Source: Flavobacteriales bacterium
GTDB taxonomy: Bacteria; Bacteroidota; Bacteroidia; Flavobacteriales_G; Salibacteraceae
NCBI GenBank assembly: GCA_013204105.1
Contig: JABMOM010000041.1
Coordinates: forward strand, 1-34,414
Length of the DNA: 34,414 bases
Direction of reading: 5' to 3'
The translations under genes and the position numbers were made by a program. Below are positions 1-31,333 of the stretch, piece after piece; position 1 is the stretch's first letter; every line of letters begins with the position of its first letter. The notes below the pieces were generated by a model. The model was not told the DNA's origin. It saw only the letters and a list, made by a program, of their open reading frames with translations, and ran no database searches.

Positions 1-953
1 CACCGACCCTCATTCCGATGCTCGCAGGCATGTACTATCTGAATGAGGACGGAATAGCTGTTGTCGACCCTCAATCACATGATAATGGTAGCACAGATAA
101 TTGTGGTCCGATATCATTCTTCGTAGTGCCGTCAGACACGCTCGACTGTAGTAATCTCGACGGACCTGCATTTTACTCCTTATATGCGATGGACGCAGAC
201 AGCAACATTTCAGACCCAGCAAACCTCTCTGTGGTCACGATGGATACTTTGCCTCCGACGATTGTAGACTGTCCCTCAAACGATACCATTTGTCAGGGAG
301 ATTCGCTTTCATCCTCAGTTGAATTTGATTACTCAGATAACTGCGAAATAGCTAGCATTATTTATGACGGTCCTGAGGGAGCTATTGAGGTGGAAGGTGA
401 TACGACTATTTCTCAGATTTGGACAGTTGAAGACCAGTCAGGAAATACAAGTACGTGTTCAACGAACACACTGGTACAATATGCGCCTCCCGTGGAACTT
501 GTAGAGGCTGGCCTCAATGGCGTGACCTGTTTTGAAGTTGAATCAGGAGCAAGTCCTTCGAGTTACATCTGGATGAATGGTTCTACTGATTTCATGGTGT
601 GTGTGTCAGATACTCAATGGGTTTGGGTTCAAGTTACTTTTGATAATGGATGTACGAGAGTTGACTCCCTCTTCGCGGACTCATCTTATTTCTCCGTAGG
701 ATTATCCGAACTAGACGCTTTTGATATCAGCCTATATCCGAATCCATTTGAAGCTACTTTTCATTTACAGTCTACCAACAAAATAAAAGAGATATACGTG
801 TCTGATATGTATGGGCGTGATGTCTATACAAAGTCAAGTTTGAACAGCACTAGTCATTCGGTATCTCTACAGGGCTTACCTGCAGGTCTATATTCAGTAA
901 GACTTGTCAACCATGACTCAGAGACTTGGATTTTGAAGGTAGTAAAGGAATGA
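1..953 (+). CDS. T9SS-secreted protein with HYR-like segment, 5'-truncated by window edge
   Basis: The reading frame is open to the left edge (first full codon at base 3), so the ATG at base 18 is probably internal and the N-terminus is missing. The visible 311 residues from that ATG are rich in Cys, Ser, Thr and Asp. The middle part (about residues 75-155) has the look of a hyalin-repeat (HYR) beta-sandwich: PPTIVDCP, then DNC, then W-TVEDQSGN. The last 80 residues are a T9SS type A sorting domain: SLYPNPF near residue 239, then a YDMYGR-like stretch (SDMYGRDV), LPAGLYSVRL, and a basic end. Family knowledge says such proteins cross the outer membrane through the Por/T9SS machinery and are anchored to the surface or released. 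Its TGA abuts the integrase stop codon on the other strand with no base between. If the att interpretation is right, this gene is island cargo. The substrate or ligand is unknown. Confidence 0.85.
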   Translation, partial: PTLIPMLAGMYYLNEDGIAVVDPQSHDNGSTDNCGPISFFVVPSDTLDCSNLDGPAFYSLYAMDADSNISDPANLSVVTMDTLPPTIVDCPSNDTICQGDSLSSSVEFDYSDNCEIASIIYDGPEGAIEVEGDTTISQIWTVEDQSGNTSTCSTNTLVQYAPPVELVEAGLNGVTCFEVESGASPSSYIWMNGSTDFMVCVSDTQWVWVQVTFDNGCTRVDSLFADSSYFSVGLSELDAFDISLYPNPFEATFHLQSTNKIKEIYVSDMYGRDVYTKSSLNSTSHSVSLQGLPAGLYSVRLVNHDSETWILKVVKE

Positions 954-2237
954 TTAGCGGTCTGAGGACCACAGTTCAGCTAGTTTAAGACTGTAATCGA
1001 TAGGTTTCTTACCGATGTATTCAAGGAACTGTTTTTCCGTGCTGTGAGCTGTGATATTCATCAGTAACGGAGTAGGATACTTCCTATCTGAATAGAAATT
1101 GGTTGCGAACGACCTGCGACAGATATGTGAGCTTACCAGCTTCCACTTTTCAAAGTGTCCATTATCATAACGCTTGCTGTCCTCGTTATATAGATTGCCC
1201 TCTGTTTTCTCATTCAACCCCGCTAAACGACAAACTTCCTTTATGTACCTATTGAATAGCGCTGCTGCACTTTGAATTGTATTGGCAAATGAATCTGGAA
1301 ACTCCCCTTCTCGCTTATCCAATATTGCCCTCACTTCAGAGTGAATAGGAATCTGGACTGTCTTGCCTGTCTTTTGCTGTGTAAGTACAATGAAGTCGTA
1401 CCCTTCAATCCTTTCCATCATCGCAGTGTTAACCCTTAATAGGTCACTCACTCTTTGCCCCATGTAACAGCCAAGTATCAACCAGTCTTTAGCCCTCTCA
1501 TGGGTTTCGTTTGGCATGCTTGCTTGCTTCACTCGTTCCAGTTCATCAAAGCTCAAAGTGACCTTAGGAATTTCTACAGTATACCCCTTGAAAGCTTCAA
1601 TTTGTGGGTTGGTCTCTAAACCTTCTTTCCGTGCGTCAAGAACGATAGTTTTAACTGTTTTGAGGTACCTTCCTACGGTATTCTCAGATAGATTCTCAAC
1701 GTCTCTGAAAAACCCAATTAATGCTTTTCTATATGCAAGGTCGACCTCGTTGAGCTTGAACTGCTTCTTTGAATGCTTGTCAAAAGATTCGAGCTTGTTT
1801 ACGATGGTAGTATACTTTTTGCTTGTGGCTAAGCTTACCCCTCTCTTGCCTCGGTCAGTTACCTTAAAATCCAGATTCGTCAAGAAGTAGCGCCCGTATT
1901 CAACCAAGCCATCTACTTGTTCAGTCTTGTCAATTGATTTTCTATCGAATGCTTTCTCGATTACTCCCTCGAACCATTCACGGTCGATAACCTTGCCTTT
2001 GGTTTGAGCTTCGTTGTATGAATCAAATACTACTTCGTCAAGTTTGGCAAGTTGGTGGTTGAGAGCTTTCGCTCTTGCATCCCTTCCTTTCGCTCTGCCT
2101 AGGGTGGTATCCCACAGGCTGGGGTCAATAGTGAATCCCGTTTTGAGTTTGACGGAATTACTTCTGCCCATCGACAATCTGCAATAGACTGGTGCTTCAG
2201 GTTTCTTGCTTTGGAGGAGGAACTTTATAGTTGCCAT
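954..2237 (-). CDS. Tyrosine recombinase (phage-type integrase), Bacteroidota family
   Basis: This 427-residue site-specific recombinase would catalyse strand exchange through a 3'-phosphotyrosine intermediate. Domains in order: an N-terminal arm-binding region (about 1-90), a SAM-like core-binding region (about 110-215) and the catalytic domain (about 225-415). All expected catalytic residues are visible: Arg262 in GQRVSDLL, Lys289 in QQKTGK, His371 and Arg374 in HICRRSFAT, His398 in ITAHSTEKQ, and the nucleophile Tyr407 in FLEYIGK. Length and motifs fit integrases of Bacteroidota genomic islands and conjugative elements, so it looks intact. The ATG is preceded by three direct repeats (2261-2299) that could be arm-type or control sites. 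About 175 bases upstream of its start lies a tmRNA-like 3' end, the expected attachment site. No excisionase gene is visible in the window. Confidence 0.95.
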   Translation of the reverse strand: MATIKFLLQSKKPEAPVYCRLSMGRSNSVKLKTGFTIDPSLWDTTLGRAKGRDARAKALNHQLAKLDEVVFDSYNEAQTKGKVIDREWFEGVIEKAFDRKSIDKTEQVDGLVEYGRYFLTNLDFKVTDRGKRGVSLATSKKYTTIVNKLESFDKHSKKQFKLNEVDLAYRKALIGFFRDVENLSENTVGRYLKTVKTIVLDARKEGLETNPQIEAFKGYTVEIPKVTLSFDELERVKQASMPNETHERAKDWLILGCYMGQRVSDLLRVNTAMMERIEGYDFIVLTQQKTGKTVQIPIHSEVRAILDKREGEFPDSFANTIQSAAALFNRYIKEVCRLAGLNEKTEGNLYNEDSKRYDNGHFEKWKLVSSHICRRSFATNFYSDRKYPTPLLMNITAHSTEKQFLEYIGKKPIDYSLKLAELWSSDR

Positions 2238-2260
2238 GGTTTATAGATTTCCCGCTAATT

Positions 2261-2299
2261 TAGTCAACATCTAGTCAACAAAGAGCAATTTTAGTCAAC
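2261..2299. repeat. Three direct copies of TAGTCAAC upstream of integrase
   Basis: Identical 8-base copies lie at 2261-2268, 2272-2279 and 2292-2299 (starts 11 and 20 bases apart, about one and two helical turns). Two weaker TTCAAT copies follow near 2303-2319. They lie between the integrase start and the att-like site. Their phasing suggests protein binding on one face of the DNA, such as integrase arm sites, an excisionase or a repressor. This function is inferred only. Confidence 0.6.
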
Positions 2300-2410
2300 T
2301 TTATTCAATGTCATTCAATTCTTGCGCTCAGGGGTTTAGTTCTGAAACCATTGAAATAAAGGGCTTATAGTAGCTATTTGGTGGTAAAGAGGGGTGCTGC
2401 ATATTGAAAA

Positions 2411-2434
2411 GTTGTACTCCCACCAGCTCCACTA
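2411..2434 (+). other. Probable attR: duplicated 3' end of tmRNA (ssrA)
   Basis: The segment ends in CCAGCTCCACTA. In Bacteroidota the tmRNA acceptor stem begins GGGGCTG and ends CAGCTCC followed by a short ACNA tail, so this is the expected 3' strand of acceptor stem plus tail, preceded by a C-rich T-stem-like strand. The sequence to the left has no matching 5' half of a tRNA or tmRNA, so only the 3' end is present. A strong terminator follows within 10 bases, as it would behind the native gene. Together with the adjacent integrase this fits an attachment-site duplication left by island insertion. A tRNA ending in the same bases is the main alternative. Confidence 0.65.
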
Positions 2435-2443
2435 GATGATCCA

Positions 2444-2473
2444 GCCTCGCCGCGACAGCGGCGGGGCTTTTTT
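2444..2473 (+). terminator. Rho-independent terminator behind the tmRNA 3' fragment
   Basis: A 10-base-pair stem (2444-2453 with 2458-2467, one G-U pair) closes a GACA loop and is followed by six T. It is positioned as the native terminator of ssrA, now separated from the gene by the inserted element. Confidence 0.85.
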
Positions 2474-2523
2474 ATGGCTATCCGAGCCGAGCTAGCTCGA
2501 GCGCGGATAGCCATAAAAAGCCC
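2464..2523. repeat. Large inverted repeat overlapping the terminator
   Basis: Arms 2464-2484 and 2504-2523 are reverse complements over about 20 bases, with one extra T in the left arm. The intervening bases contain a perfect 12-base palindrome (2488-2499). The left arm reuses the second half and T-run of the terminator, so two mutually exclusive hairpins are possible. It could act as a terminator for transcripts from the right, or be a repeat-family element. Confidence 0.75.
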
Positions 2524-2640: not shown

Positions 2641-2937
2641 TTAATTAGCGAATTAGAATATTAGACAATTGGTCTGTCAGTATTGCGGTTGAAATTGCAA
2701 TTGATAATTGGCCGTTAGCTACTGGCTGCTGGCTTGTACTTCGGCAATCCCAATCAAATCCATTGAAAGGACTTTTTACTCGTCCAAAATTGAAGTTGCA
2801 GTTGCAGTTGACTCCGATCCTCCCGGCGTGTAACCCTAGCCACTATTCCCCAGAGCATCCGGCATCCACAGGCTCCACTAATCTTCCATCTTCAATCTTT
2901 CACACCCTAAACCATCATGCCCGTGGGGAAAAGCCGT
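2641..2937. other. Non-coding gap, no feature recognised
   Basis: An AT-rich stretch with short TTAG/AATTAG and GTTGCA repeats leads up to the first EPS gene. The open frames here have no recognisable protein character and overlap the real gene in another frame. The bases GCTCCACTA recur at 2873-2881, but without any tmRNA-like flank. Confidence 0.5.
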
Positions 2938-2945
2938 TATCTTTG
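2938..2945 (+). promoter_or_regulatory. Bacteroidota -7 element (TATCTTTG) of the EPS operon
   Basis: It matches TAnnTTTG exactly and sits only seven bases before the chosen start at 2953, so transcription would begin at or within a few bases of the ATG. No clear TTG at the usual -33 distance is seen. Its position argues against the upstream in-frame ATG at 2917. Confidence 0.5.
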
Positions 2946-2952
2946 CCGGCCT

Positions 2953-3735
2953 ATGAAAAATTGGGTTCGATTTCTAGTGTTTGCGATGCTGCCGTTGATG
3001 GTGAGCTCCTGTATTTCGTACAAGAAGTCCTTGGTTTTGAAAGGAGAAGAGTCACTTTTTCTGGATGCTAAAGTGTCTACACCTGAAACTACATATGTGC
3101 TACAAACGAGCGATGTAGTCTTCATTGAGATCGACCGTTTAGTCATGGGTGACGAGATGTATACCATGGCCGACCACCTCAATTCGCAACTGCGGGCCCA
3201 GCAGATGAATCCCTATGTCGCCGGTAATCCGATCAAGGAGAATGGCAAATTGGACGTGCCTTTGGTAGGTGAAGTGCAAGCTGCAGGGCTGACAATCGAC
3301 GAATTGAATCAATCAATTTTGGCTGCGGCTCAAAAAGTTTACTCAACCGCTGCTGTGAAGGTATTCTTACTCACACAGAACATTACCGTGATGGGGGAGG
3401 TGCCCCGGAGTGGTCGCTTCTCCTACTACACCGAAAGGATTAATATTTTCGATGCAGTTGCTATGGCAGGAGGTTTTACCGATTTTTCTGACCGAGGAGA
3501 AATCAAGATCCTGCGCGAAGAGGGGGGAGAAACGAAGGTGATTCACGTGGACCTAGCTACCTTGACCGACTTTGAAGGGCAATACTTCTATCTAAAAAGC
3601 AACGACGTGGTGTTGGTTAGTCCTCAAAAGCGCAAACGCTGGGTAGCGAATAACAATTTCGGTGCGGTATTGTCGTCCATCACTGTAGCGGTAACGGTGT
3701 TGAGCTTGGTTATTTCACTCAATAGCGCCAAGTAG
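2953..3735 (+). CDS. Polysaccharide export lipoprotein, Wza-like (PES/SLBB)
   Basis: A 260-residue outer-membrane polysaccharide export protein. I place the start at 2953 because this gives a clean lipoprotein signal, MKNWVRFLVFAMLPLMVSSC with the lipidated Cys20; an in-frame ATG 12 codons earlier would put charged residues in front of it and lies upstream of the probable promoter. The polysaccharide-export (PES) domain follows (about 45-125), with DVVFIEI and the NGKLDVPLVGEV motif, then an SLBB domain with ITVMGEVPRSGRF and FDAVAMAGGF. The C-terminal hydrophobic helix (about 238-258) matches the segment that in Wza builds the outer-membrane pore. It is first in the operon and ends one base before the next gene, the usual pairing with the chain-length kinase. 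Confidence 0.93.
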   Translation: MKNWVRFLVFAMLPLMVSSCISYKKSLVLKGEESLFLDAKVSTPETTYVLQTSDVVFIEIDRLVMGDEMYTMADHLNSQLRAQQMNPYVAGNPIKENGKLDVPLVGEVQAAGLTIDELNQSILAAAQKVYSTAAVKVFLLTQNITVMGEVPRSGRFSYYTERINIFDAVAMAGGFTDFSDRGEIKILREEGGETKVIHVDLATLTDFEGQYFYLKSNDVVLVSPQKRKRWVANNNFGAVLSSITVAVTVLSLVISLNSAK

Positions 3736-3736
3736 T

Positions 3737-6028
3737 ATGAGGTATATTAAAAACGGAGAAATTGACATTCGGAAGCTCGTTATTGAGCAAGTGAAGCATT
3801 GGTACATCTATGCCGGCGCGGTTGTTCTTTGCCTACTTGCCGCCTTTTTGTACAACCGCTATACGATTGAGCAATATGAGGTGTTGGCAGCGGTCCGTGT
3901 AGAACAGTCCTCTTCTCAAAGCATCGATCCAACAAAAATTTTGTTTGGAGGTGAAACGTCTCCATTTCGGAACGACGTAGAAGATGAAGTCTTTATCATC
4001 AAGTCGTACCCGATTGTATCACAGGCCGTGCGCCATCTTAATCTCGGGGTGAATTACTATCGTTTGACTGAGCAACTAGGTCGTTTCATTGAAATGCATA
4101 ATGACATGCCATTTTTTGTGGAAGTGTCTGAAAACCTTTTGACAGAAGGATATGCGGGTGAGTTTGAAGTGGAATTCAGTGAAGATGGTTCAACCTTTCA
4201 ACTGAGCATCGATGGACAAAATGTCAACCTGGATTGGGGCAAATCTTTTCAATTAGGTGGTGGTTCTGTCCAGATCCTTAGAAATGACTCCGTCAGTTTG
4301 GGCGAGTTTCATGAGTTCACTTGGGTATTTACTATCCCTGGAACCAAGGCTGCTACATACAATTACATCGATCGATTGAATGTATCTCCGAAAGCGGAAG
4401 ATTCGCGAGTCTTGTTTTTTCTACTCACGGGTGGGAATGCCGATAAAGAACGCAACATGCTTGATGCTTTGTTGCATTTCTACATCAAAGACGATTTACG
4501 CGTGAAGAATCAAGTGGCTGCTAATACCATAGATTTTATTGAAAGCGAGCTACAAGAGATACGTGATTCCTTGAATAAGATTGAAACCCGTTTGGAATTA
4601 TTCAAATCATCCAAGAAGATTTCGGATTTGAGTTCTGAGGCAAGTAAGGTATTCGATCAATTGGTTACCCTAGAAGAAGAAAAAGCTGTTTTGCGCTTGA
4701 AGGACAAGTATTACGAGTACTTGTTTGATTACATGGACAGCCCTGAATCTAGTGATTTGCTCGTAAGCCCTGAGTCGTTTGGTGTAGACGATGCCAACCT
4801 GAACCAACTGGTACTTGATATAATCCAGGCACAGCTTCAAATCAACAGTTTAGAGGAACGGGGCAATGTTCAAAATCCGATTTACAACGAGATGAAGGTG
4901 CGGATAGAGCAGTTGCACAAGGTGCTGAACAGTTCGCTGAGCAACGCGCGAGCCGCGAATCAATTAAAGTTGCAGGAGGTGGATCGGCGTCTTTCATACA
5001 TTGAAAGTTCGATGCGCTCCTTTCCCGGTTCTGAGATCCAGTTGATCAACATCCAAAGGCTATATAAGATCAGTGAGAACTTGTACCTGCTGTTGATGGA
5101 GAAGAAGGCTGAAGCGGAAATCAGCTTGAGTTCAAGCACCTCTGACATACGCATTGTGGAGCCCGCGCGGATGGCTTCACCGATGCCCATCAGTCCAAAC
5201 AAGAAGCTGGTTTATCTGATCGCCTTATTCGGTGGCTTGGTGTTTGCTTTTTCTTTTTTGTTAGTGAGAGACTACCTTGATGATAAGATTCAAGGCAAGG
5301 AAGATATTCTTGAGCGTGCCGATATCCCTTTTGCGGGCGAGGTTGTGACTGCCAAAAGCACAGAGCTGAGCTATCTCAAGGAAAATCCAAAATCACAATT
5401 GGCCGAATGCTTTCGCACGGTGCGCTTCAATTTCAATTACATGATCGGTGAAGTGGAGACGCCTGTCATCTTGGTGACCTCTACCATACCGGGCGAGGGC
5501 AAGACTTTCTTCAGTTCCCGCTTGGCCTATTCCATTTCGGGGCCGGAGAAGAAGGGCATCATCATCGGGGCTGACCTGCGCAAGCCCAAGTTGCATTCCG
5601 AGTTTGAATTGGACAACAACGAGGGATTGAGTTCCTACCTTGTAGGGCGCGCTGACTTGGATCAAATTATCCAAGTATACAATGATCACCTAGACGTCCT
5701 TCCCTCGGGTCCCGTTCCTCCGAATCCCCTGGAGCTGTTTGAAAAGCCCAAGTTCAGAGAATTGATCGCCGAATTGAAACGGCGCTACTACTTCATCGTG
5801 ATCGATACTCCACCGATTGGTATAGTATCCGAGAGCGCGGAGATCATGAAGGTGGTCGATTTGTCTGTTTTTGTGCTTCGCGCGGGCTACAGCCCCTTGG
5901 TTACAATTGATCGCATCCTTGAAACCACTACTAAGATGGAAGACAAGCCTTTCGCATTCGTAATCAATGACGTGGAACAGACTTCGGGATATGGATATTA
6001 CGGGAAGTATGGGTATTATTCCGAATAG
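3737..6028 (+). CDS. Chain-length determinant / BY-kinase fusion, Wzc-like
   Basis: This 763-residue inner-membrane protein combines a Wzz-type chain-length domain with a bacterial tyrosine kinase and should control polymer length and export together with the Wza-like partner. A first membrane segment is at about 18-36 and a second at about 488-510; between them is a long periplasmic coiled coil (about 260-440) and the PxxP-type stretch SPMPISPNK just before the second segment. The cytoplasmic kinase has Walker A GEGKT (Lys589), Walker A' GADLRKPK (Asp613) and Walker B FIVIDTPP (Asp690). The tail after residue 750 carries six tyrosines (752, 754, 755, 758, 760, 761), the usual autophosphorylation cluster. 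It begins one base after the wza-like stop. No cognate low-molecular-weight tyrosine phosphatase gene is visible in the window. Confidence 0.95.
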   Translation: MRYIKNGEIDIRKLVIEQVKHWYIYAGAVVLCLLAAFLYNRYTIEQYEVLAAVRVEQSSSQSIDPTKILFGGETSPFRNDVEDEVFIIKSYPIVSQAVRHLNLGVNYYRLTEQLGRFIEMHNDMPFFVEVSENLLTEGYAGEFEVEFSEDGSTFQLSIDGQNVNLDWGKSFQLGGGSVQILRNDSVSLGEFHEFTWVFTIPGTKAATYNYIDRLNVSPKAEDSRVLFFLLTGGNADKERNMLDALLHFYIKDDLRVKNQVAANTIDFIESELQEIRDSLNKIETRLELFKSSKKISDLSSEASKVFDQLVTLEEEKAVLRLKDKYYEYLFDYMDSPESSDLLVSPESFGVDDANLNQLVLDIIQAQLQINSLEERGNVQNPIYNEMKVRIEQLHKVLNSSLSNARAANQLKLQEVDRRLSYIESSMRSFPGSEIQLINIQRLYKISENLYLLLMEKKAEAEISLSSSTSDIRIVEPARMASPMPISPNKKLVYLIALFGGLVFAFSFLLVRDYLDDKIQGKEDILERADIPFAGEVVTAKSTELSYLKENPKSQLAECFRTVRFNFNYMIGEVETPVILVTSTIPGEGKTFFSSRLAYSISGPEKKGIIIGADLRKPKLHSEFELDNNEGLSSYLVGRADLDQIIQVYNDHLDVLPSGPVPPNPLELFEKPKFRELIAELKRRYYFIVIDTPPIGIVSESAEIMKVVDLSVFVLRAGYSPLVTIDRILETTTKMEDKPFAFVINDVEQTSGYGYYGKYGYYSE

Positions 6029-6038
6029 CAATCCTTGA

Positions 6039-7385
6039 ATGGTTAATGCTTTCAAAAGATTTTTCAACCAGGGTGGACAGAGATCATTAGCTGTCAAACA
6101 GCATGTGCTTTATTCTGCTTTTTTTAAAGGTGGAAGCCTTTTGATTAACCTCATTTTGGTTCCAATTTACTTGGGATTGCTTGATACTTCTTTATACGGT
6201 GTTTGGCTTGCGCTGAGCTCAATTGTCACGTGGTTTCAATTTTTTGACTTAGGCCTAGGAAATGGTTTGAGAAATAAATTAGTTGAAGCCAAAGAGGGTA
6301 TTCAAGAATATACCGAGAGCCAACTGGTATCTTCTGCTTATGCTATGGTTTGCCTACCTGCGCTATTGTTGATTGCAGGGTTTTCAGTATTGCCATTTTT
6401 TCTTGATATCGGAAAATTATTAAGGATTGAGAGCCAAGTCTCAAATGATTTGTTAGCGCTTACATTGATGTGGCTTGGATTGTCATTTGGGGTTCAACTC
6501 GTCTTAAAAACCATCACATACATTTACCTCGCGGATCAAAAAGCTTCAATGAATAATGCTGTCAATTTCAGCATGAATATCCTTTTGCTCCTCGCTTTAT
6601 ACGGATTTGACTATTTTGATTTTCAACCATCGGTCGCTCATATTGCGTTTCTGAATGGTCTTTTCCCGGTATTGATTCTGCTTATTTTAACTCTCTATGC
6701 TTTTAACGGGCCTTTCAACCACATTAAGCTTAGTTTGCGAAACGTTAGTTTCAATTCAATAAGAGCCGTGCTAGTATTAGGCGGGCAGTTTTTCATTATT
6801 CAGTTTTCGGCAGTTGTGTTGTTCAGTACAGATAATATTATAGCATCTTATCTATTTGATGATTCGTCTGTTTCTCAGTATGCGATTCATTACAAGTTGT
6901 TTCAATTTCCATTGATCGCGTTTTCAATATTAATGCAGCCTTTTTGGTCGGCATTTACGCAGGCTAAAGTTCAACAAGACTGGGTTTGGGTTCAAAATGC
7001 CATTCGTAAGTTGTTGAAACTTTATTATATGACTATACCCATAACGTTGACTTTATTATTCATTGCACCGTTTATAATAGAATTTTGGGTGGACGGCCTC
7101 GTCGAATCGCCTTTTCTTTTGCGTTTCTCCATGACACTTTATTTTTCATTGGCCATGTTTGGTTCTATTTTCGTAGCTGTAATCAATGGCTTCGGTATAA
7201 TAAAAATTCAAATGTATTTTAGCATAGCTAACGTTTTTGTGAATATTCCGTTATCCATACTTTTTGCGGAATATTTATCGATGGGTATGTCCGGCATTAT
7301 TTTAGCAAGTGCTATATGCCTTTCTTACGGCCCATTTGTAGCTCCTTTTCATGTGCGTAAAATTCTTAGATCAAAACTTGTATGA
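6039..7385 (+). CDS. Polysaccharide flippase, Wzx-like (MOP superfamily)
   Basis: A 448-residue, very hydrophobic protein with about twelve predicted membrane helices, typical of oligosaccharide-lipid flippases that move undecaprenyl-linked repeat units across the inner membrane. The N-terminal region carries the family pattern of a first helix pair followed by GVWLALSSIVTWFQFFDLGLGNGLRNK, split here by charged residues as in other Wzx/RfbX proteins. The gene starts ten bases after the kinase stop and overlaps the next gene by four bases (ATGA). Base composition turns sharply AT-rich here compared with the two preceding genes, suggesting the start of an exchangeable cassette. The substrate cannot be deduced from the sequence. 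Confidence 0.9.
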   Translation: MVNAFKRFFNQGGQRSLAVKQHVLYSAFFKGGSLLINLILVPIYLGLLDTSLYGVWLALSSIVTWFQFFDLGLGNGLRNKLVEAKEGIQEYTESQLVSSAYAMVCLPALLLIAGFSVLPFFLDIGKLLRIESQVSNDLLALTLMWLGLSFGVQLVLKTITYIYLADQKASMNNAVNFSMNILLLLALYGFDYFDFQPSVAHIAFLNGLFPVLILLILTLYAFNGPFNHIKLSLRNVSFNSIRAVLVLGGQFFIIQFSAVVLFSTDNIIASYLFDDSSVSQYAIHYKLFQFPLIAFSILMQPFWSAFTQAKVQQDWVWVQNAIRKLLKLYYMTIPITLTLLFIAPFIIEFWVDGLVESPFLLRFSMTLYFSLAMFGSIFVAVINGFGIIKIQMYFSIANVFVNIPLSILFAEYLSMGMSGIILASAICLSYGPFVAPFHVRKILRSKLV

Positions 7386-8296
7386 GCCAAGTAAAATCTC
7401 CCGTTACAGGAACTAATAATGTTGAGAAAATCCGAAGCATTAATGTTCAAAAGTTGATTTCTGGGTATAAGAATGCATTCGGCACTGATGTTTCACATTT
7501 CGTAAATAATAAAGACATATCTGTTTATCGTTGTTTGGATTCTGATCTTCTTTTTTATGAGCCTAGAGATGCTGCGGGCGATGGGGGGTTTTACAATGAA
7601 TTATCTCGCTTTGATTGGTACTATGAGGAAAACAAGTGGGAGTTCGATCAAGCTCTTGAATTCATCACATCGAATGACAGAGTTTTGGAAATAGGCAGTG
7701 GTGAGGGCGCTTTTTTAGAGAAAGCTTCAAAAATATGCAAAGAGGCAATAGGTTTAGAGTTGAATGAAGATGCTATTGAAGTTTCAAAGGCCAAGGGATT
7801 ATCAGTAGAAAAAAGAACGGTTCAAGATTTTGTGAGAGAAAATGGTTTGTTCGATGTGGTTTGTTCTTTTCAAGTCATGGAGCATGTCGAGGATGTAAAA
7901 GGAATCTTGGATGCTTCAATTAAGTTGCTGAAAAAGGATGGGGTCTTAATTATAAGTGTGCCAAATAATTCAGGATACTTGAAAAATCTTGAGTTTTCAT
8001 TGTTGAATATGCCTCCACATCATTTGAATTTGTGGACGGTCGATTCATTTAGAACTCTTGAATTTTTTTTTCCAATTAAACTTGATTCGATGAGATTTGA
8101 GCCTTTAAGGCAAGACCATGTATCGGGTTTTGTGGCCTCGATATCTAAAGAGCTTACTTCCTCGAATTTGATTATCAAGTTATTGTACAAGATGTTTATG
8201 AGAAAGAAGCTGCATAATGGTGTGGATTCTTTGAGAAGCTCTATTAATGGAATAACATTGTTCACCGTGTTCAGAAGGCAGGATCAGAATAATTGA
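7382..8296 (+). CDS. Class I SAM-dependent methyltransferase
   Basis: A 304-residue methyltransferase. The SAM-binding motif I is VLEIGSGEGAFLEKA (Glu103 in LEIG), followed by the acidic end of strand 2 (GLELNED), and motif IV/V FDVVCSFQVMEHVED with the VPNNSG loop. The N-terminal 70 residues resemble the zinc-ribbon leader seen in related sugar methyltransferases (pattern CPxCG...YRC), but here the first Cys pair is lost (SPVTG) and only YRCLDSDLLFYEP remains, so metal binding is unlikely. In its position between flippase and polymerase it most likely O- or N-methylates a sugar of the repeat unit; the acceptor is unknown. It shares four bases with each neighbour, pointing to coupled translation. 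Confidence 0.85.
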   Translation: MSQVKSPVTGTNNVEKIRSINVQKLISGYKNAFGTDVSHFVNNKDISVYRCLDSDLLFYEPRDAAGDGGFYNELSRFDWYYEENKWEFDQALEFITSNDRVLEIGSGEGAFLEKASKICKEAIGLELNEDAIEVSKAKGLSVEKRTVQDFVRENGLFDVVCSFQVMEHVEDVKGILDASIKLLKKDGVLIISVPNNSGYLKNLEFSLLNMPPHHLNLWTVDSFRTLEFFFPIKLDSMRFEPLRQDHVSGFVASISKELTSSNLIIKLLYKMFMRKKLHNGVDSLRSSINGITLFTVFRRQDQNN

Positions 8297-9525
8297 ATAG
8301 GTCAGATTTTATATTAACTGGTATTGTTCTCGCAGTATCTTCTTTTCCATTTTTTACGACAGGATATTTATTTAATATCATCGGGTTCATACTTTTTGCA
8401 TCCATTTTCGTTATTCGAAAGCTTCGATTTGATATCACTTTTATTTATTTCTTGCTTTTCTTAACCGCTTTATTGATCGGTCAGGCGCTTATTTTTCAGT
8501 TTATGTCTATTAGAACCACTTTGGGCATTTACATTTCTTTTATTAAAGCCTACCTGGCAATAAAAATTATTGGTAAATCATTTTTCGATTATTTTTTGAA
8601 ATGGATGGTAATATTTACCTTGATCAGCTTTGTTTTTTTTATTCCATCATTGGTCTTTCCAAGTTTTGAGTCTTTTTTGATATCGGAAGTGGCTCCATTT
8701 TTTGAGCGGACGGGCAGTAGGTATGGCTACTCTTATAATCCGAATTTTATCATTTACACCCTCAATACTGGCATTACTAATACCAGTATGTCTGATTTCT
8801 ATTTTTTCCCTGGAAGGAATCCGGGGCCGTTTCATGAGGCAGGAGGATTTGCTGTGTTTCTGGTTCCTGCAATTGCCATAAATGCATTCAGGAAGGGTGT
8901 TTTTTTTTCTCGGTGGAATTTGATTTTAACTGCGGGTCTAATTTCAACTTTCTCCACATCAGGATACATTGCCCTAGGAGTCTTTTCTGTTTTATATATT
9001 TTCATACAGTACAGGGCATACGCTAGTTTATTCTTATTGCCTTTGTTAATTTGGGGCTTTTACATTGCTTTTACCTCTATTGGTTTTCTTGGGGAAAAAA
9101 TAGAGACTCGGTTTACTGGGTTTGATGTTGAAGCTGCTCAAAAAGCTCAACGTAGAGAGCGCTTTGCTAATTTCATAGTTGATATGAATGATGCGGTGCA
9201 TTATCCACTAACGGGTAGAGGTGCAAATGAGCATACGCGTTTCGCAAATTTTGAGGAATTTAATGGAAAGACTCACAAGAATAATGGTGTGTCGGATTTA
9301 GCGGCTACTTATGGACTTGTTTTCTTTATTGTCTATTTTGTTTTGTTGTTTCGAGCATTTAAAGTATGCTTTGAACTTTATTCTGAAAATATTTTTATGA
9401 TGGCGGGATCGTTGCTTTTTTTGGTTTTGCTTGTGGGGTTTTCCCAAGTAGTATTTGAGAATTTCTTTTTTTTGACTCTTATGTTTTTGGGTTTATTACC
9501 GAAAGAAAATTTTAAAAATGCATAA
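8293..9525 (+). CDS. O-antigen/EPS polymerase, Wzy-like
   Basis: A 410-residue integral membrane protein with about eleven hydrophobic segments and a long loop at about 155-190 containing RNPGPFHEAGGFAVF, which resembles the periplasmic loop of O-antigen polymerase/ligase-family proteins. It has low sequence conservation, as expected for Wzy. The start codon is TTG within the overlap TTGA that also contains the methyltransferase stop; no ATG lies close by in frame, and the first membrane helix begins within ten residues, which supports this start. Strongly AT-rich codon use like its neighbours. Its role would be joining repeat units on the periplasmic face. A WaaL-type ligase is the alternative, less likely in this operon position. 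Confidence 0.82.
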   Translation: MNRSDFILTGIVLAVSSFPFFTTGYLFNIIGFILFASIFVIRKLRFDITFIYFLLFLTALLIGQALIFQFMSIRTTLGIYISFIKAYLAIKIIGKSFFDYFLKWMVIFTLISFVFFIPSLVFPSFESFLISEVAPFFERTGSRYGYSYNPNFIIYTLNTGITNTSMSDFYFFPGRNPGPFHEAGGFAVFLVPAIAINAFRKGVFFSRWNLILTAGLISTFSTSGYIALGVFSVLYIFIQYRAYASLFLLPLLIWGFYIAFTSIGFLGEKIETRFTGFDVEAAQKAQRRERFANFIVDMNDAVHYPLTGRGANEHTRFANFEEFNGKTHKNNGVSDLAATYGLVFFIVYFVLLFRAFKVCFELYSENIFMMAGSLLFLVLLVGFSQVVFENFFFLTLMFLGLLPKENFKNA

Positions 9526-10711
9526 GTCAAAGATTAAAGTTCTCTGGCTTTGTCCTTTTCCTGTGTTTGATCTTTCTGATTTTTTGAAAATTTCAAGGAA
9601 AGTGTCAAGTCACTCATCAAGTTGGATTAGAGTTTTGTCTAAGGAACTATCAAGTCATTCAGAAATTGATTTGCATTTACTAACAATGTCCCAATATGTA
9701 AATTCAAATTGTACTGGTTTTAAAGGTGGAATTACTTATCACGTAATAAGGGATGGCGTTCCTTTCACAAATAGCGGATATCCAAGTTTTATCCCAGTTC
9801 AACGATTGACCGAATATTATTTTTTCAGACGCAGAGCTTCAAGGTATATTCAGTCTAAGATTCAGCCAGATATTATTCATGCGCATGGCACAGAAGGTCC
9901 ATATTCCTTGTTGGCTTCGCAGTTATCTTATCCGTATATAACGTCCATTCAAGGTATATTAAGAGAAATTGTAAAACATGAGAGTTCAATCTTGAATTTT
10001 TTGAAAGTACGCTCTGAAAAGAAAGCGATCGAATCGGGTGACTTCTTTGGATGTCGAACAGATTTTGACTCGAGTTATGTGAAATCCATAAACAAGAAAA
10101 GCAACATTATTTATTTGCCAGAAGCTATGAATAGTCTTTACTTTTCAGAAGAGTGGAAAATGGTAGGTGAGAATAATTTGGTTTTTATTGGAACAATCTG
10201 TGAAAGAAAAGGAATTTTTGACTTGATAAAAGCATTGAATTTGATAAAGCGAAAAGTGAATTTGAAGATTATAGGTACGGGTTCCGCTTCGGATACGCAA
10301 AAGCTTTCGAAAATGATAGAATATTTTCAACTAGAGGATAGTGTAGAGCTTATGGGCAGACTCGATCCTCAAGAGATCTTAGTAGTTTTTAAGGAATCTT
10401 TATTGTGTGTGTTGCCAAGCCATGTTGATAACAGTCCAAACACTGTTGCTGAAGCTCAGGCATTTGGAATTCCAGTCTTAAGTACGAGGGTAGGGGGTAT
10501 CCCATCCATGATTAGTGAAAATGTGACTGGTTTTTTGACCGAGCCAAAAAATTCTGAAGGACTTGCGGAGTCAATTGAGAAAATTTTGGATAAACGAGAA
10601 ATCCTAAATGAAATTTCAGAAAGGGAAAAGCTTTTAGCACATGATAATTACTACCCATCTAAAGTAGCAGAGATTACAGTAGCCGCATACCGGAATATTT
10701 TGAGTTTATAA
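9518..10711 (+). CDS. Glycosyltransferase family 4 (GT-B fold)
   Basis: A 397-residue retaining glycosyltransferase. The N-terminal Rossmann half ends near residue 195; the C-terminal half opens with VFIGTICERKGIFDLIKAL and contains the nucleotide-sugar site PSHVDNSPNTVAEAQAFGIPV followed by GGIPSMI. In the family E-x7-E motif the first acid is Asp304 here and the second is Glu312. It overlaps the polymerase gene by eight bases and is the last gene of the AT-rich block. It should act on the cytoplasmic face to extend the lipid-linked repeat unit; donor and acceptor sugars are unknown. Confidence 0.88.
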   Translation: MHKSKIKVLWLCPFPVFDLSDFLKISRKVSSHSSSWIRVLSKELSSHSEIDLHLLTMSQYVNSNCTGFKGGITYHVIRDGVPFTNSGYPSFIPVQRLTEYYFFRRRASRYIQSKIQPDIIHAHGTEGPYSLLASQLSYPYITSIQGILREIVKHESSILNFLKVRSEKKAIESGDFFGCRTDFDSSYVKSINKKSNIIYLPEAMNSLYFSEEWKMVGENNLVFIGTICERKGIFDLIKALNLIKRKVNLKIIGTGSASDTQKLSKMIEYFQLEDSVELMGRLDPQEILVVFKESLLCVLPSHVDNSPNTVAEAQAFGIPVLSTRVGGIPSMISENVTGFLTEPKNSEGLAESIEKILDKREILNEISEREKLLAHDNYYPSKVAEITVAAYRNILSL

Positions 10712-10732
10712 AACAATTTTTTTCTCTATAAT

Positions 10733-10740
10733 TACTTTTG
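10733..10740 (+). promoter_or_regulatory. Possible internal promoter (TACTTTTG) before carbamoyltransferase
   Basis: The only sizeable gap inside the EPS operon (10712-10764) contains an exact TAnnTTTG match 24 bases before the next ATG. A TTG at the usual -33 spacing is not evident, and no terminator hairpin separates it from the upstream genes, so read-through is also likely. Confidence 0.45.
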
Positions 10741-10764
10741 CCAATTTAATTTAAGCCACCACGA

Positions 10765-12453
10765 ATGAAAATTTTAGGTATTCACGCCGGTCACGACGCC
10801 AGTGCAGCACTGATTGTTGATGGAAAAGTTGTCGCTGACGTGGCAGAAGAGCGGTTTAACCGAATTAAGCATTTTGCGGGTTTGCCGATAGAAGCTATTA
10901 AGTATTGTTTGCAATCAGGTAGCTTGGGAATTAATGACGTGGATTACATCGTTTTGCCGTCGAAAAATCTTCAACCTAAGATGAATGTTTTGTTTGACCT
11001 GAAGGGTGATGATGCTATCCAGACTTCTTTGACCCACAAAGCAGTCAAACTTTATAAAGAGAAGCTGAAAAGAAGTGATGTGAAACCTCCCGTTTATATG
11101 GAGTTTTTCCCATTGAAAGATGCGTCAAAAATTAAGCATATTGACCATCATTTGTCGCATGCTGCTTCAGCTTACTACACGAGTGGAACTGCGGAAAGAC
11201 AGCTCATCTTCACGATGGATGGTATTGGCGATGGTGCATCAATAGTAATATGGGAAGGTATCAATGGGAAAATCACAGAGCTGAAGAGATTTGGTGCGAA
11301 TGCAAGTCTCGGTTGGTTTTATGGCAATGTTACTGAAGGGCTCGGGTGGATTCACGGGGATGGAGAGGGAAAGACAATGGGGTTAGATCCCTATGGCAAT
11401 GCTGAAAACTGCACAGGAGTATTGGATAGGTTTTGTCCCAAATTTAAGAATGGTGAATTGGCTGAACCGCACGATTTTGGAAGGACTTTTTACTGGAATG
11501 AGAATGGCAGTTTTCAATATCACTTAGAAGAAGCAAAAGAAATACAAGGCTTGGTTCCTAAATATGGAAGAGAAGATATTGCAGCTGAAGCGCAACGAGT
11601 GTTGGAACGAGAGGTGTTCAACATTGTATTGCCTTGGATTGAAAAAACGGGTTGTGATTTTATTAGTTGCTCGGGTGGAATATTCTTAAACGTAAAGCTT
11701 AACCAACGCTTATGGGAGTGTGAACAAGTTAAGAAGCAACATATTTATGCGAACGCAGGAGACTCTGGTTTAGCTGTGGGATGTGCACTGCAAGTATATT
11801 ATGAGCTGAATCCAAAGGCAGAAGTGTTGAGACCAGAGGACATTTATTGGGGGCCAGAATATTCGAACGACTATGTCAAAGAAATTCTGGATGCTAGAGG
11901 CCTAAGCTATGAATATGTTGAAAATATAGAAGCTTATACGGCTCAATTGCTCGCTGATGATAAGATCATAGCATGGTTTCAAGGTCGCATGGAAAGTGGC
12001 CCTCGTGCATTAGGAAATAGGTCAATTTTAATGAGTCCGAACAAACCAGAGAACAAGGATGTGATAAATGCTAAAGTGAAGTTCAGGGAAGCCTTCAGAC
12101 CATTTTGTCCTTCATTACAATGGGAGAAAAGAGATGAATACCTAGAAAATGCCCGAGATGAATTTTTTATGATTACTTCATTTACATGTAAGGAAGATAA
12201 AAGAGCTAAAGTGCCTGCCGTAGTGCATGCGGATAACACGATGCGTCCTCAAACTGTTAAGAAGGAGTTCAATGAACGCTATTGGAATTTGATCAATGAA
12301 TTTGGGAAACTTACAGGTGAGTACGTGTTGCTTAACACCTCATTTAATATCATGGGTGAACCGATGATTAACCATCCTCGAGAGGCAATCCGATGTTTTT
12401 ATGATGGCGGGATTGAAGTGCTCGTAATAGGCAATTATGTCCTCAAAAAGTAA
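10765..12453 (+). CDS. NodU/TobZ-family O-carbamoyltransferase
   Basis: A 562-residue enzyme of the NodU/CmcH/TobZ family, which uses carbamoyl phosphate and ATP to place a carbamoyl group on a sugar hydroxyl through a carbamoyl-adenylate. The N-terminal Kae1-like domain has GIHAGHDASAAL at the start and the metal-binding HHLSH (128-132); NAGDSGLAVG near residue 330 supplies the third expected ligand. The C-terminal YrdC-like part has GRMESGPRALGNRSIL (from residue 407) and FREAFRPFCPS, matching the carbamoyltransferase C-terminal signature. Length is normal and nothing looks broken. The stop and the next start share one base (TAATG). In an EPS operon it should carbamoylate the repeat unit or its precursor. 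Confidence 0.93.
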   Translation: MKILGIHAGHDASAALIVDGKVVADVAEERFNRIKHFAGLPIEAIKYCLQSGSLGINDVDYIVLPSKNLQPKMNVLFDLKGDDAIQTSLTHKAVKLYKEKLKRSDVKPPVYMEFFPLKDASKIKHIDHHLSHAASAYYTSGTAERQLIFTMDGIGDGASIVIWEGINGKITELKRFGANASLGWFYGNVTEGLGWIHGDGEGKTMGLDPYGNAENCTGVLDRFCPKFKNGELAEPHDFGRTFYWNENGSFQYHLEEAKEIQGLVPKYGREDIAAEAQRVLEREVFNIVLPWIEKTGCDFISCSGGIFLNVKLNQRLWECEQVKKQHIYANAGDSGLAVGCALQVYYELNPKAEVLRPEDIYWGPEYSNDYVKEILDARGLSYEYVENIEAYTAQLLADDKIIAWFQGRMESGPRALGNRSILMSPNKPENKDVINAKVKFREAFRPFCPSLQWEKRDEYLENARDEFFMITSFTCKEDKRAKVPAVVHADNTMRPQTVKKEFNERYWNLINEFGKLTGEYVLLNTSFNIMGEPMINHPREAIRCFYDGGIEVLVIGNYVLKK

Positions 12454-13268
12454 TGAAGAAAATCTCCATCATTACGATTTCATATAATCAGAAGGATTTT
12501 ATCAAAGAAGCCATAGATTCTGTACTGGATCAGGAGTGTGAAGACTTAGAGTACATAGTTATTGATGCTGGATCAACCGATGGAAGCAGAGATATTATTG
12601 ATCGTTATAGCGATCAAATTATTAAAGTGTATGAACCAGACGAAGGTCAGGCAGACGGATTGAATAAGGGGTTGCGCATGGCGACAGGCGATGTGATTGG
12701 ATTTGTGAATTCAGATGATTTACTTATAGATGGCTCCCTGCGCTATGTGGCTGAGCAGTTCACACGACGAGGTAAATTGGATGTTCTCTTTGGTTCAGGA
12801 TATAAAGTAGATGAGGATTTGAATGTGATTCATGACATCTATCCAGATCGATTTACAGTAGACAAATACGCTCACATGGCGTTTAATTTTATCCAAACCG
12901 GCACATTTTTCAAACGTAGTGCAATCGATAGGATAGGTGGGTTTAACCTTGAGAACCGAACGTGTTGGGATGGCGAATTGATTGCCATATTGGGTAAGGA
13001 AGGTGCAGTGATGAAGCGCTCACTCAAAAAACTAGCTGCTTTCCGCATATATGGCTCTTCGATAAGTGGCTCAGGATCAAATAGCGCCAACTATCTTGCG
13101 GACAGAGCAAGGCTCTTCGTTGAGCTTACCGGTCGACCATCAGATGAGTTTTTGAAAGGCATTGTGCCGTTTTGGTTGCGGTTTGTGAATTTTATTGAGA
13201 CCCCTCTGAAACTGAAGGTTTATGGACAAAAATCCTTCCCAGCATTGTGGCGAAAGACTTTAAAATAA
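12453..13268 (+). CDS. Glycosyltransferase family 2 (GT-A fold)
   Basis: A 271-residue inverting-type glycosyltransferase. The nucleotide-binding start is ISIITISYNQKDFIKEAIDS, followed by DAGSTDGS (38-45) and the metal-binding NSDD (Asp88, Asp89). QADGLNKGL and the FIQTGTFFKRSA loop match the WcaA-like subgroup seen in capsule loci. No membrane segment is present, so it should act on the cytoplasmic face. Its 3' end overlaps the next gene by 22 bases. Donor sugar is not deducible. Confidence 0.88.
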   Translation: MKKISIITISYNQKDFIKEAIDSVLDQECEDLEYIVIDAGSTDGSRDIIDRYSDQIIKVYEPDEGQADGLNKGLRMATGDVIGFVNSDDLLIDGSLRYVAEQFTRRGKLDVLFGSGYKVDEDLNVIHDIYPDRFTVDKYAHMAFNFIQTGTFFKRSAIDRIGGFNLENRTCWDGELIAILGKEGAVMKRSLKKLAAFRIYGSSISGSGSNSANYLADRARLFVELTGRPSDEFLKGIVPFWLRFVNFIETPLKLKVYGQKSFPALWRKTLK

Positions 13269-14332
13269 CGTATATAACGAATATTCCTTCACCTTATCGG
13301 GTTTACTTCTTCGATAAGCTTGCTGAACGGATTGGGTCGAGATTACACGTTATCTATTGCGCTACAAACGAAGCCAATCGTTCATGGAATCTGCCTAACA
13401 TTTCGCACGAAGCGACCTTTTTGAAACCAGGTAGGTTTAAGTTCATGGGTTGGTCCTTTTACTTTCAATGGGATGTTTTACGCTACTTAATAAATCAAAA
13501 ACCAGACATCGTCGTTACGGGAGGTTTCCATCCAACCATGTGGATTGTGATTCTTTATTGTTGGTCTACAGGAGTGAAGCATGCCATCAATACAGACGCC
13601 TGGGAGCTCACAGAACGTTCGTATAAATGGTACCATCGATGGATGAGAAAGCTAGTCTATGCGCGTGCGACATACTTTTTCCCGATCAGTCAAAAGGGTA
13701 AAGTCAATTTGGTCAATAACTACCGCGTACCGGCGAAGAAAACGTGCGTGATTCCCTATGTTATTAATCAAGAACCGTTCAATAAGATAGAATCGTCTAG
13801 GAAGTTTGATGTGTTATTTTCAGGTCAATTTATTGATCGCAAGTTGCCTCTTTTTTTTGCTCGAGTATGCGTTTTATTGGCTGAGCGTCTATCACGTAGA
13901 GTAAAGGTGGCAGTTCTAGGCGATGGGCCATTGAAGGATCAGTTATTGAAAGCGTTAAGTATGGATGGAATCGATCTGTATTATCCAGGATTTGTTCAGC
14001 AAGAGCAAATTCCAGAAATCTTCCGTAGTGCTAAATATTTTTTATTTCCTACTCTTGAGGATGGTTGGGGTGTGGTAGCAAATGAAGCTGTCGCGGCAAG
14101 TATCCCTTGTTTAACAAACGAATCTGCCGGTGCCGCCAATGACATAATTCGAAACGGTGAAAATGGTTTTGTCCTTGAACTTATTGAAAGTGTTTGGGTA
14201 GATTATTTAATGAAGCTTGAGCAATCAGCTGAGCTTTACAATCAAATGACTGAATCAAATCGAATCATTGGTTTGCGTTTTTCGGGTGAGGTAGTTGTAA
14301 CTAACTTACTAGCATTTTTAAATGAACAATAG
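13247..14332 (+). CDS. Glycosyltransferase family 4
   Basis: A 361-residue GT-B enzyme. The start is GTG at 13247, 22 bases inside the preceding gene; the frame then reads directly into KITYITNIPSPYRVYFFDKL, the canonical N-terminal strand and loop, so this start is well supported. The C-terminal half has VLFSGQFIDRKLP, and FPTLEDGWGVVANEAVAAS with Glu280 as the conserved second acid and Asp272 in place of the first Glu. It overlaps the next gene by 11 bases. It is likely to add one sugar to the lipid-linked repeat; specificity is unknown. Confidence 0.88.
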   Translation: MAKDFKITYITNIPSPYRVYFFDKLAERIGSRLHVIYCATNEANRSWNLPNISHEATFLKPGRFKFMGWSFYFQWDVLRYLINQKPDIVVTGGFHPTMWIVILYCWSTGVKHAINTDAWELTERSYKWYHRWMRKLVYARATYFFPISQKGKVNLVNNYRVPAKKTCVIPYVINQEPFNKIESSRKFDVLFSGQFIDRKLPLFFARVCVLLAERLSRRVKVAVLGDGPLKDQLLKALSMDGIDLYYPGFVQQEQIPEIFRSAKYFLFPTLEDGWGVVANEAVAASIPCLTNESAGAANDIIRNGENGFVLELIESVWVDYLMKLEQSAELYNQMTESNRIIGLRFSGEVVVTNLLAFLNEQ

Positions 14333-15407
14333 AATCTTGTTCTTGGTGAAACTTCCGCCGCCTCATACAGGCGCGACCGCTATGAACAGGTTGGTAACGG
14401 AAGCTCCTATTGTAGGACAAAACTTCTCAAAAGAGATATTGAATGTTAGCTATGCGGAGTCTACCGCTGACTTGGGCTCTATTTCGTTGAAAAAATTTGC
14501 CCGTATTCTGAAATATCATATCAAACTGCTTATTGTTTTAATTTTCAGAAGACCGAATCTTATTTACTTCCAGATATCTCCGGTGGGGATGGCTTTTATC
14601 CGTGACCTTTTATTTGTTTGTTGGATAAAGCTATTTAGAATTAAAATTCTATTTCATCTGCACGGTAAAGGGATAAAAGGAGCCTGCCAGAAAAGCGAAA
14701 TGCTCAAGACCCTTTATAGATGGGGGTTTAAAAATGAACAGGTCATTTGCTTATCTAATCTATTGATTGAAGATATTGAGCAAGTTATGGATGCACCCCC
14801 CCATATTCTGCAGAATTGTTTAACAGAAGATATCACATTCGATGAAAAGCGGATCAAAGTGTATGACTTTGTCTTTTTATCAAATTTGACCTCGTCCAAG
14901 GGCGTTTACGTATTCCTCGATGCATTGCAAATTGTAACAAAAATGGGAATTGATTATTCTGCAATAATAATTGGTCAACCTGTTGAGATAAATGAAAAAT
15001 CGCTCCAAGTCGAAATTGAATCCAGGGGATTGTCGAATTGTGTAATGTACAAAGGACCTGTATTTGGTGCTGAAAAATTCGAGCTCCTTGCTCAGAGTAA
15101 ATGTATGGTGTTTCCGACTTTAAATGACGTTTGGGGCCTTGTCATACTTGAGGCTTTTTCTCAAAAAGTTCCGGTGATTGCGTCGGTTGAAGGAGCTATT
15201 CCTGAAATGGTAATTGATGGAGAGACGGGTTTTTTAGTGGAGAAGGCAAATATTACTTTAATCGCGGAACGCATGGAATGGACTTTATCCAACCCGCACT
15301 TGACAGAGCAAATGGGCTTGCGAGGGAATAAATTGCTCAACGAAAACTTTACGGTGGAAAACTTCCATGCTCGGCTACTTCGAATATTGCAAATTTGCAG
15401 CCAATAG
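14322..15407 (+). CDS. Glycosyltransferase family 4
   Basis: A 361-residue GT-B enzyme with the N-terminal LVKLPPPHTGATAMNRLV loop, found in many capsule glycosyltransferases, and the C-terminal site FPTLNDVWGLVILEAFSQK followed by EGAIPEMVIDGETGFLV. The conserved second acid is Glu277 and the first position is again Asp (269). A hydrophobic stretch near residues 66-110 contains IYFQISPVGMAFI and may contact the membrane. It overlaps the preceding gene and ends 15 bases before the amidotransferase gene, consistent with one transcript. Confidence 0.88.
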   Translation: MNNRILFLVKLPPPHTGATAMNRLVTEAPIVGQNFSKEILNVSYAESTADLGSISLKKFARILKYHIKLLIVLIFRRPNLIYFQISPVGMAFIRDLLFVCWIKLFRIKILFHLHGKGIKGACQKSEMLKTLYRWGFKNEQVICLSNLLIEDIEQVMDAPPHILQNCLTEDITFDEKRIKVYDFVFLSNLTSSKGVYVFLDALQIVTKMGIDYSAIIIGQPVEINEKSLQVEIESRGLSNCVMYKGPVFGAEKFELLAQSKCMVFPTLNDVWGLVILEAFSQKVPVIASVEGAIPEMVIDGETGFLVEKANITLIAERMEWTLSNPHLTEQMGLRGNKLLNENFTVENFHARLLRILQICSQ

Positions 15408-15422
15408 AAATGCCCCTCATGA

Positions 15423-18141: not shown

Positions 18142-18154
18142 ATCATTTGAACCT

Positions 18155-20281: not shown

Positions 20282-20284
20282 TGC

Positions 20285-25234: not shown

Positions 25235-25236
25235 TC

Positions 25237-25280
25237 CTAGGGAGTAGGGGGTAGGGGGTAGTAGGGAGTAGGGAGTAGGA
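25237..25280 (+). repeat. GGGAGTA/GGGGGTA tandem repeat, quadruplex-capable
   Basis: Imperfect seven-base units with five G-runs of three or more (25240-25273), separated by AGTA, TA, TAGTA and AGTA. The tract begins right after the Wzi-like gene and mirrors the G-run tract at 2610-2635 in front of the locus. It could form a G-quadruplex in the + strand and promote recombination or slow polymerases. Confidence 0.7.
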
Positions 25281-25338
25281 CAGCGCTGGTACTGACCTCA
25301 TAGAATCAGTTCACTTCACTTCATACGGAAATCTTAGT

Positions 25339-25367
25339 TTTTCACTTTTCACTTTTCACTTTTCACT
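25339..25367 (+). repeat. Four tandem TTTTCAC heptamers
   Basis: Four perfect head-to-tail copies of the seven-base unit lie in the gap between the Wzi-like gene and the sugar transferase. The same gap (25235-25539) has no hidden gene that I can see; it holds the G-run repeat, this repeat and the candidate promoter elements. Copy number may vary by slippage. Confidence 0.75.
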
Positions 25368-25390
25368 GCACCCTGTGCCCTGAAATCGAC

Positions 25391-25398
25391 TAACTTTG
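25391..25398 (+). promoter_or_regulatory. Candidate promoter (TAACTTTG) of the sugar transferase
   Basis: An exact TAnnTTTG match about 140 bases before the sugar transferase start. A weaker match, CACCTTTG at 25486-25493, lies nearer the gene. Neither has a clear TTG at the expected distance, so which one is used is open. Either would give the initiating transferase its own transcript. Confidence 0.35.
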
Positions 25399-31329: not shown

Positions 31330-31333
31330 GCGA

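Follow-up and report, generated by a model that had tools for sequence, protein, structure and literature searches.

A 3′ fragment of the tmRNA gene as the probable attR site of an integrative element in a Flavobacteriales genome

The 17 bases at positions 2416-2432 (plus strand) of the DNA analysed here are almost certainly the attR core of an integrative element that was inserted into the 3′ end of the tmRNA gene (ssrA) by tyrosine-integrase recombination. The analysed DNA, called the window below, is the whole of contig C39 (34,414 bases), and its left edge is the contig end. The tmRNA tail in the window is the scar of a mobile-element insertion into the tmRNA gene, a kind of event that is already well known. 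The attR is an ordinary feature that an earlier note on the same letters had read correctly; nothing but the proposed element-borne terminator described below exceeds textbook knowledge. Everything left of 2416 thus belongs to the element and everything right of it to the older chromosome, which fixes one mobile-element boundary and explains the context of the contig. The features of the window are listed in Table 1.

Table 1. Features of the window (contig C39) on both sides of the proposed attR
Feature	Positions	Strand	Remarks
Right end of integrated element	1..2415		left end is C4, 54867-57486
Element cargo, cut by contig end	3..953	+	T9SS sorting domain (Por_Secre_tail) and sub-threshold HYR match
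Tyrosine integrase (Arm-DNA-bind_5, SAM_5, catalytic domain)	954..2237	-	reads away from attR into the element
Three TAGTCAAC direct repeats	2261..2299 (2261, 2272, 2292)	+	probable arm-type integrase sites
attR core	2416..2432	+	17 bases, the same as at the 3′ end of ssrA in this genome
Native ssrA 3′ flank TAGATGATCC	2433..2442	+	first 8 bases are those of empty-type G006
Native ssrA intrinsic terminator, moved off ssrA by insertion	2443..2474	+	11-pair stem, 4-nt loop, T tract
EPS locus, chromosomal neighbour outside the element	2917..26640	+	domain scan, not every gene
Conserved flank: OMP, AlaDh_PNT_N protein, ribulose-phosphate epimerase (-), histidine kinase (-)	28667..33445		block adjoins ssrA in the genus

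Direct reading of the sequence gives GTTGTACTCCCACCAGCTCCACTA at 2411-2434, followed by GATGATCC and a terminator, with ACTCCCACCAGCTCCACTA at 2416-2434. A tmRNA family search of the same genome found a full ssrA (G000:C4:54472-54866, plus strand, E 4.5e-60), which ARAGORN called as a tmRNA gene with the tag GETTYALAA. This gene ends 2,620 bases before the right end of contig C4 (57,486 bases), and its 3′ end reads GACTCCCACCAGCTCCACAA / GGTTCGACTCCCACCAGCTCCACAA. The block common to the window and this gene is ACTCCCACCAGCTCCAC, 17 bases in the same orientation; positions 2411-2415 lie outside it, and at 2433-2434 the window has TA, as in the ssrA flank of the relative G006, where the C4 gene has AA. 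The earlier note had described a tmRNA-like 3′ end of about 24 bases: the tail is real, but the exact identity covers 17 bases, not 24. A full ssrA with the same 3′ end, which it expected to the left, lies on C4 and not in the window, which is an entire contig. ARAGORN found no tRNA or tmRNA inside the window and Rfam nothing at gathering thresholds. Searching the genome for the 19-mer (2416-2434) at up to three mismatches gave one exact copy (the window), one with one mismatch (ssrA) and one with three mismatches, the reversed-pattern control giving two forward matches and one reverse; with one exact copy in the assembly, the fragment is not scattered. The sole other tmRNA-family match in this genome was an 18-base piece of a tRNA-Ser.

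Twelve same-genus relatives were compared, ten of which have a full ssrA (G003 and G008, without one, were left out). After CTCCAC, the gene runs into T[AT]GATGA and a terminator in G006, G002 and G005, which lack the element signature. In G006 it ends CTCCACTA followed by GATGAT and the terminator, and TAGATGAT is shared exactly with the window; in G002 it ends CTCCACTT followed by GATGAT and in G005 CTCCACTT followed by GATGAC. The uninterrupted site is thus seen in these three relatives, and the terminator stands at about the same place as in the window. Of this particular element, neither an empty site nor a circular form was observed. In G001, G004, G009, G010 and G012, ssrA is followed by AA or AT, a hairpin with a U tract and TAGTCA-type repeats (degenerate in G001), as is the C4 gene. 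G007 (no TAGTCA repeat after ssrA) and G011 (contig ending with ssrA) were left unclassed. By these flank types, the native flank stands at the attR of the window and the element flank at the ssrA on C4. T[AT]GATGAT follows attR in three of four cases (the window, G009 and G010, not G004).

The terminator that the earlier note placed after the tail is real. Nine of the 11 pairs of its stem (2443-2468) are G-C, and TTTTTATG follows; the stem is the longest of five such sites in a scan of positions 1-4000 (shuffle mean 3.1). The fold of 2411-2520, a stretch that includes a second palindrome, has z = -8.2, and none of 200 shuffles was as good. Directly after the terminator lies a long palindrome, TTTTTTATGGCTATCCG...CGGATAGCCATAAAAAG (2469-2519). 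Sequence related to it occurs at two places on C26, and similar-looking palindromes were seen by eye after ssrA terminators in relatives and after a tRNA-Ser; a terminator-linked repeat family is possible.

The integrase gene encodes 427 amino acids and starts 179 bases left of the attR core. Arm-DNA-bind_5 and Phage_int_SAM_5 scored above the cut-off and Phage_integrase just below it (25.5 versus 27.1 bits). R262, K289, H371, R374, H398 and Y407, which we take to be the catalytic residues, are all present, in keeping with the intact tyrosine integrase claimed for the island side. C4 has two copies of TAGTCAAC, at 56 and 67 bases past ssrA; their spacing of 11 bp recurs in the window, and the repeat is probably an arm-type integrase site. 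As a bare 8-mer it is not rare, at least three copies appearing in four of 100 whole-window shuffles and at least two in 13 of 200 shuffles of locus L076; the weight of the repeats lies in their position, period and recurrence in relatives, not in the rarity of the word.

Complete elements, with ssrA at one end and a copy of its 3′ end at the other, are also found in relatives. A second core stands 5,383 bases after ssrA in G010 (a 5.4 kb element, integrase 49% identical to that of the window) and 6,871 bases after it in G004 (6.9 kb, integrase broken), and both have TAGTCAGC-type pairs at both ends. In G009 the integrase (53%) and attR are on another contig and the right-hand repeats are degenerate. 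Among named isolates, such elements occur in Polaribacter aquimarinus (6.7 kb), Flagellimonas oceanensis (11.5 kb) and Chryseobacterium indologenes (17.4 kb); that of Polaribacter has TAGTCAAC twice at its left end and three times at its right, like the present genome. The attR reading of the earlier note is thus borne out by an ssrA with the same 3′ end near a contig end, by the native context in relatives and by ssrA-bounded elements with related integrases. The element of Flagellimonas carries type I restriction-modification genes (M, S and R) and an AbiD/Abi_2 gene (L242:3950-10593), so the element group can carry phage defence. A small REP_ORF2-G2P protein is also encoded there (L242:3145-3576).

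For eight close integrase relatives (at least 43% identity in the best segment, at least 370 query residues spanned), an ssrA 3′-end copy was found about 200-260 bases upstream of the matched start in six; in the other two, L172 (G001, 48%) and L174 (Prolixibacteraceae, 45%), there was none in 700 bases upstream. The idea that all relatives of the window integrase use ssrA was rejected. At 30 named loci, 29 with ssrA, the genome's own ssrA 3′ 16-mer was sought within 700 bases upstream of the integrase and was found at up to two mismatches in five of the 29 (Polaribacter, Flagellimonas, Capnocytophaga and two Chryseobacterium); the best match had at least five mismatches in the other 24, and the opposite-strand control at least six in all 29. 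At the remaining ten of the 40 integrase-relative loci, a copy is present in L168, L171 and L199; L172, L182, L201 and L204-L207 gave no match by a general 3′-end pattern, which misses some true sites (L169, L173). One further integrase relative, 37% identical, was seen in viral contigs.

The most probable course of events may be put as follows. The tyrosine integrase would have recombined the element into the 3′ end of ssrA. As the sequences show, a full tmRNA gene on C4 leads into element-type sequence, and the window holds the displaced 3′ copy, then the native-type flank and terminator, adjoining the EPS locus. The integrase gene is situated just inside attR and is read inwards, and there are paired repeats just inside both ends. 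The hairpin and U tract just inside attL would now end ssrA in place of the native terminator.

Within the 75 bases that follow CTCCAC, junctions were scored for hairpins leading into a T tract. At 11 of 12 element-side junctions, ssrA is followed directly by such a hairpin and U tract (-13.1 to -20.7 kcal/mol), and for each of the 11 none of 20 dinucleotide shuffles was as good; the Polaribacter junction has no U-tract hairpin by this rule. Nine of the 12 have a known attR copy, and G001, G012 and the second core of G002 were included by repeat signature or likeness only; they are not 12 independent cases, G002, G004 and G012 being near copies, as are the two Chryseobacterium junctions. On the native side all five sites tested have such a hairpin; one of 20 shuffles equalled that of the window, and no shuffle equalled any of the remaining four. 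In the nine genomes with both sides known, the first 65 bases past the core were compared between them: C. indologenes and Capnocytophaga are clearly alike, Flagellimonas is somewhat above the best of 200 shuffles, and six (this genome, G004, G009, G010, Polaribacter and C. culicis) are not above it. The element-side terminator is therefore not clearly like the attR terminator in seven of nine genomes and alike in two.

We propose, giving it an even chance of being right, that in this Flavobacteriales integrase group attP would consist of the core, an intrinsic terminator and paired arm sites, so that insertion would restore the tmRNA 3′ end and install a terminator owned by the element, an arrangement selected to keep the target terminated and insulated. 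On this proposal, the terminators of the elements would mostly be unlike the native one in sequence but occupy its place. The like sequences on both sides in two of the nine genomes count against an element-owned terminator and in favour of the alternative that follows. The hairpin at attL could instead be a DNA-level feature of attP (for spacing or as a protein site) or a copy of the host terminator, which we consider rather unlikely. Its place between core and repeats would suit an accessory protein and the Polaribacter version lacks a U tract by the rule used, but the other 11 versions, for all their differing stems, close with U-rich sequence on the strand of ssrA, and their energies were reached by none of 20 shuffles each. 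A host copy would agree with C. indologenes and Capnocytophaga; against it, the two sides align no better than shuffles in six of the nine genomes and only somewhat better in Flagellimonas. The anatomy of attL (restored gene, terminator, arm repeats) is an easy marker by which other members can be found, and it suggests, in a testable way, how elements may avoid harm to a target gene. Among titles and abstract openings in an incomplete literature, no prior description of an element-borne terminator was found, and no priority is claimed.

The two ends of the element stand on different contigs; their linkage comes from synteny, across an unassembled junction. Nine relatives (G001, G002, G004, G006, G007 and G009-G012) have OMP and AlaDh_PNT_N genes 5′ of ssrA, accompanied by the epimerase gene except in G004, where no such ORF was called. 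A DUF983-type gene with its neighbours is found 3′ of ssrA in G001, G004 and G007, and in G009 beyond attR on a second contig. The 9.7 kb 3′ of ssrA in G006 hold other genes and none of the DUF983 side, and the contigs of G002, G010, G011 and G012 end too soon for this comparison. The C4 side and the C39 side bracket a single ssrA in G001, G004, G005 and G007; they do so in G009 as well, where a similar contig break intervenes. Since C39 carries the first gene set and C4 the second, both contigs flank one ssrA. We infer that the right end of C4 and the left end of C39 are parts of a single element, which would measure at least about 5.05 kb in addition to the unassembled gap, although no sequence overlap was found between the two contig ends. 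No relaxase or conjugation genes were found among five ORFs scanned from the two assembled ends, the middle of the element being missing. The cut cargo protein was tried as a lead to this middle and discarded: besides itself it gave 26 weak matches (at most 40.3 bits), mostly to the C-terminal sorting domain.

The attL of C4 and the window's attR might also come from separate members of a tandem array, the interval then being a composite, but we judge this improbable. Arrays of this kind would fit a further core 169 bases past attR in G010, an element that begins 152 bases past ssrA in G002 and the same-strand ssrA copies counted in the survey below. The same version of the arm repeat, TAGTCAAC, is however present at both ends here, as a single element would have it, where the related subfamily (G004, G010) has TAGTCAGC, and no further copy of the 19-mer with fewer than three mismatches exists in the assembly (the gap being unassembled).

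A wider survey covered 92 ssrA loci, a non-random set of 80 hand-chosen loci and 12 treated above, with up to 20 kb downstream and in some cases little. A same-strand copy of the gene's own 3′ 16-mer (at most two mismatches) was found downstream in 14 and an opposite-strand copy in none; ssrA is a recurrent landing site in this class. In eight of the 14 loci copies lie within 85-609 bases of ssrA, and two loci have two copies. That the 17-base match in the window arose by chance or from a tmRNA pseudogene fragment unrelated to integration can practically be dismissed: loose matches mean little, the reversed-pattern control having three at up to three mismatches, but simple arithmetic gives about 4e-4 chance occurrences of an exact 17-mer on the two strands of 3.1 Mb, the match has the same orientation, a native-type flank and terminator and an integrase start 179 bases off, the same layout recurs in relatives, same-strand copies outnumber opposite-strand ones by 14 to 0 in the survey, and relatives in which such a flank adjoins ssrA refute it in practice. 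Short same-strand 3′-end copies were noted at L162 (+85/+187), L135 (+152), L145 (+609), L150 (+156), L160 (+136), L125 (+85) and L105 (+441), the following hairpin sometimes being copied too; these are possibly scars of lost elements.

The EPS locus includes, among the genes scanned, Poly_export/SLBB, GNVR, methyltransferase, glycosyltransferase, carbamoyltransferase, asparagine synthase and Bac_transf genes. Immediately 5′ of ssrA, export homologues are found in G015, a member of another genus (34% identity), and in two genomes of the present genus: G007, at 35% and with one internal stop, and, as a weak match of 23%, G009. On this comparison of sequences, the EPS locus is to be taken as an old neighbour of ssrA. 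Relative to its neighbours ssrA is inverted here (L076; window 28667-33445) as against nine other genomes of the genus, and the position of all EPS homologues on the 5′ side in relatives likewise indicates that ssrA is inverted in this genome. The flipped order recurs in G005, on a single contig and without an element of this kind at ssrA, and G009, 95% identical to this genome in one flank protein, is unflipped and has a different element. The gene may have flipped before the insertion, with EPS then downstream of it, or together with the element, with EPS then not downstream. The earlier proposal that EPS was the original downstream neighbour of ssrA therefore holds as to an old neighbour; the homologues lie on the 5′ side in relatives, ssrA is flipped here, and EPS would have been downstream at the time of insertion only if the flip came first.

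Three published systems come closest. The Islander study (Hudson, Lau & Williams, 2014; PMC4383910) states that the tDNA is functional again after integration and that no tRNA type was as enriched a target as the tmRNA gene. As in those tDNA islands, an intact tmRNA gene stands at one end here (C4), a same-orientation 3′ fragment at the other (the window) and a tyrosine integrase inside; in contrast to them, the element is split over two contigs and has, at its left end, an added terminator that does not resemble the native one. Nowhere in that text is the word 'terminator' used. The ssrA islands of Dehalococcoides (PMC3146451) similarly lie between ssrA and a direct repeat (20 bp) of the gene's 3′ end and form tandem islands downstream of ssrA, but their integrase, at attL, is called a serine recombinase (DsiB), whereas here a tyrosine recombinase lies at attR. 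In Flavobacteriia, the 10K island of Riemerella anatipestifer at tRNA-Arg (PMC6764341), for which integration and excision were reported experimentally, also combines a tyrosine integrase with direct repeats at a tRNA gene. Its 53-bp repeat ends in an apparent hairpin and TTTT, so that the terminator seems to be part of the repeat, unlike the present case, in which the repeat extends no further than the end of the gene and the terminator of one side differs from that of the other.

Two further repeats were noted in this assembly. An imperfect inverted repeat, CTATGGCAC...GTGCCATAG, was seen by eye at about 18440-18570 of L076, where small minus-strand genes enclose it at the element's left end; in appearance it somewhat resembles an integron cassette site. 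The right end of contig C43 (L002:1610-1826) carries a direct repeat of about 100 bases, perhaps an artefact of the assembly end.
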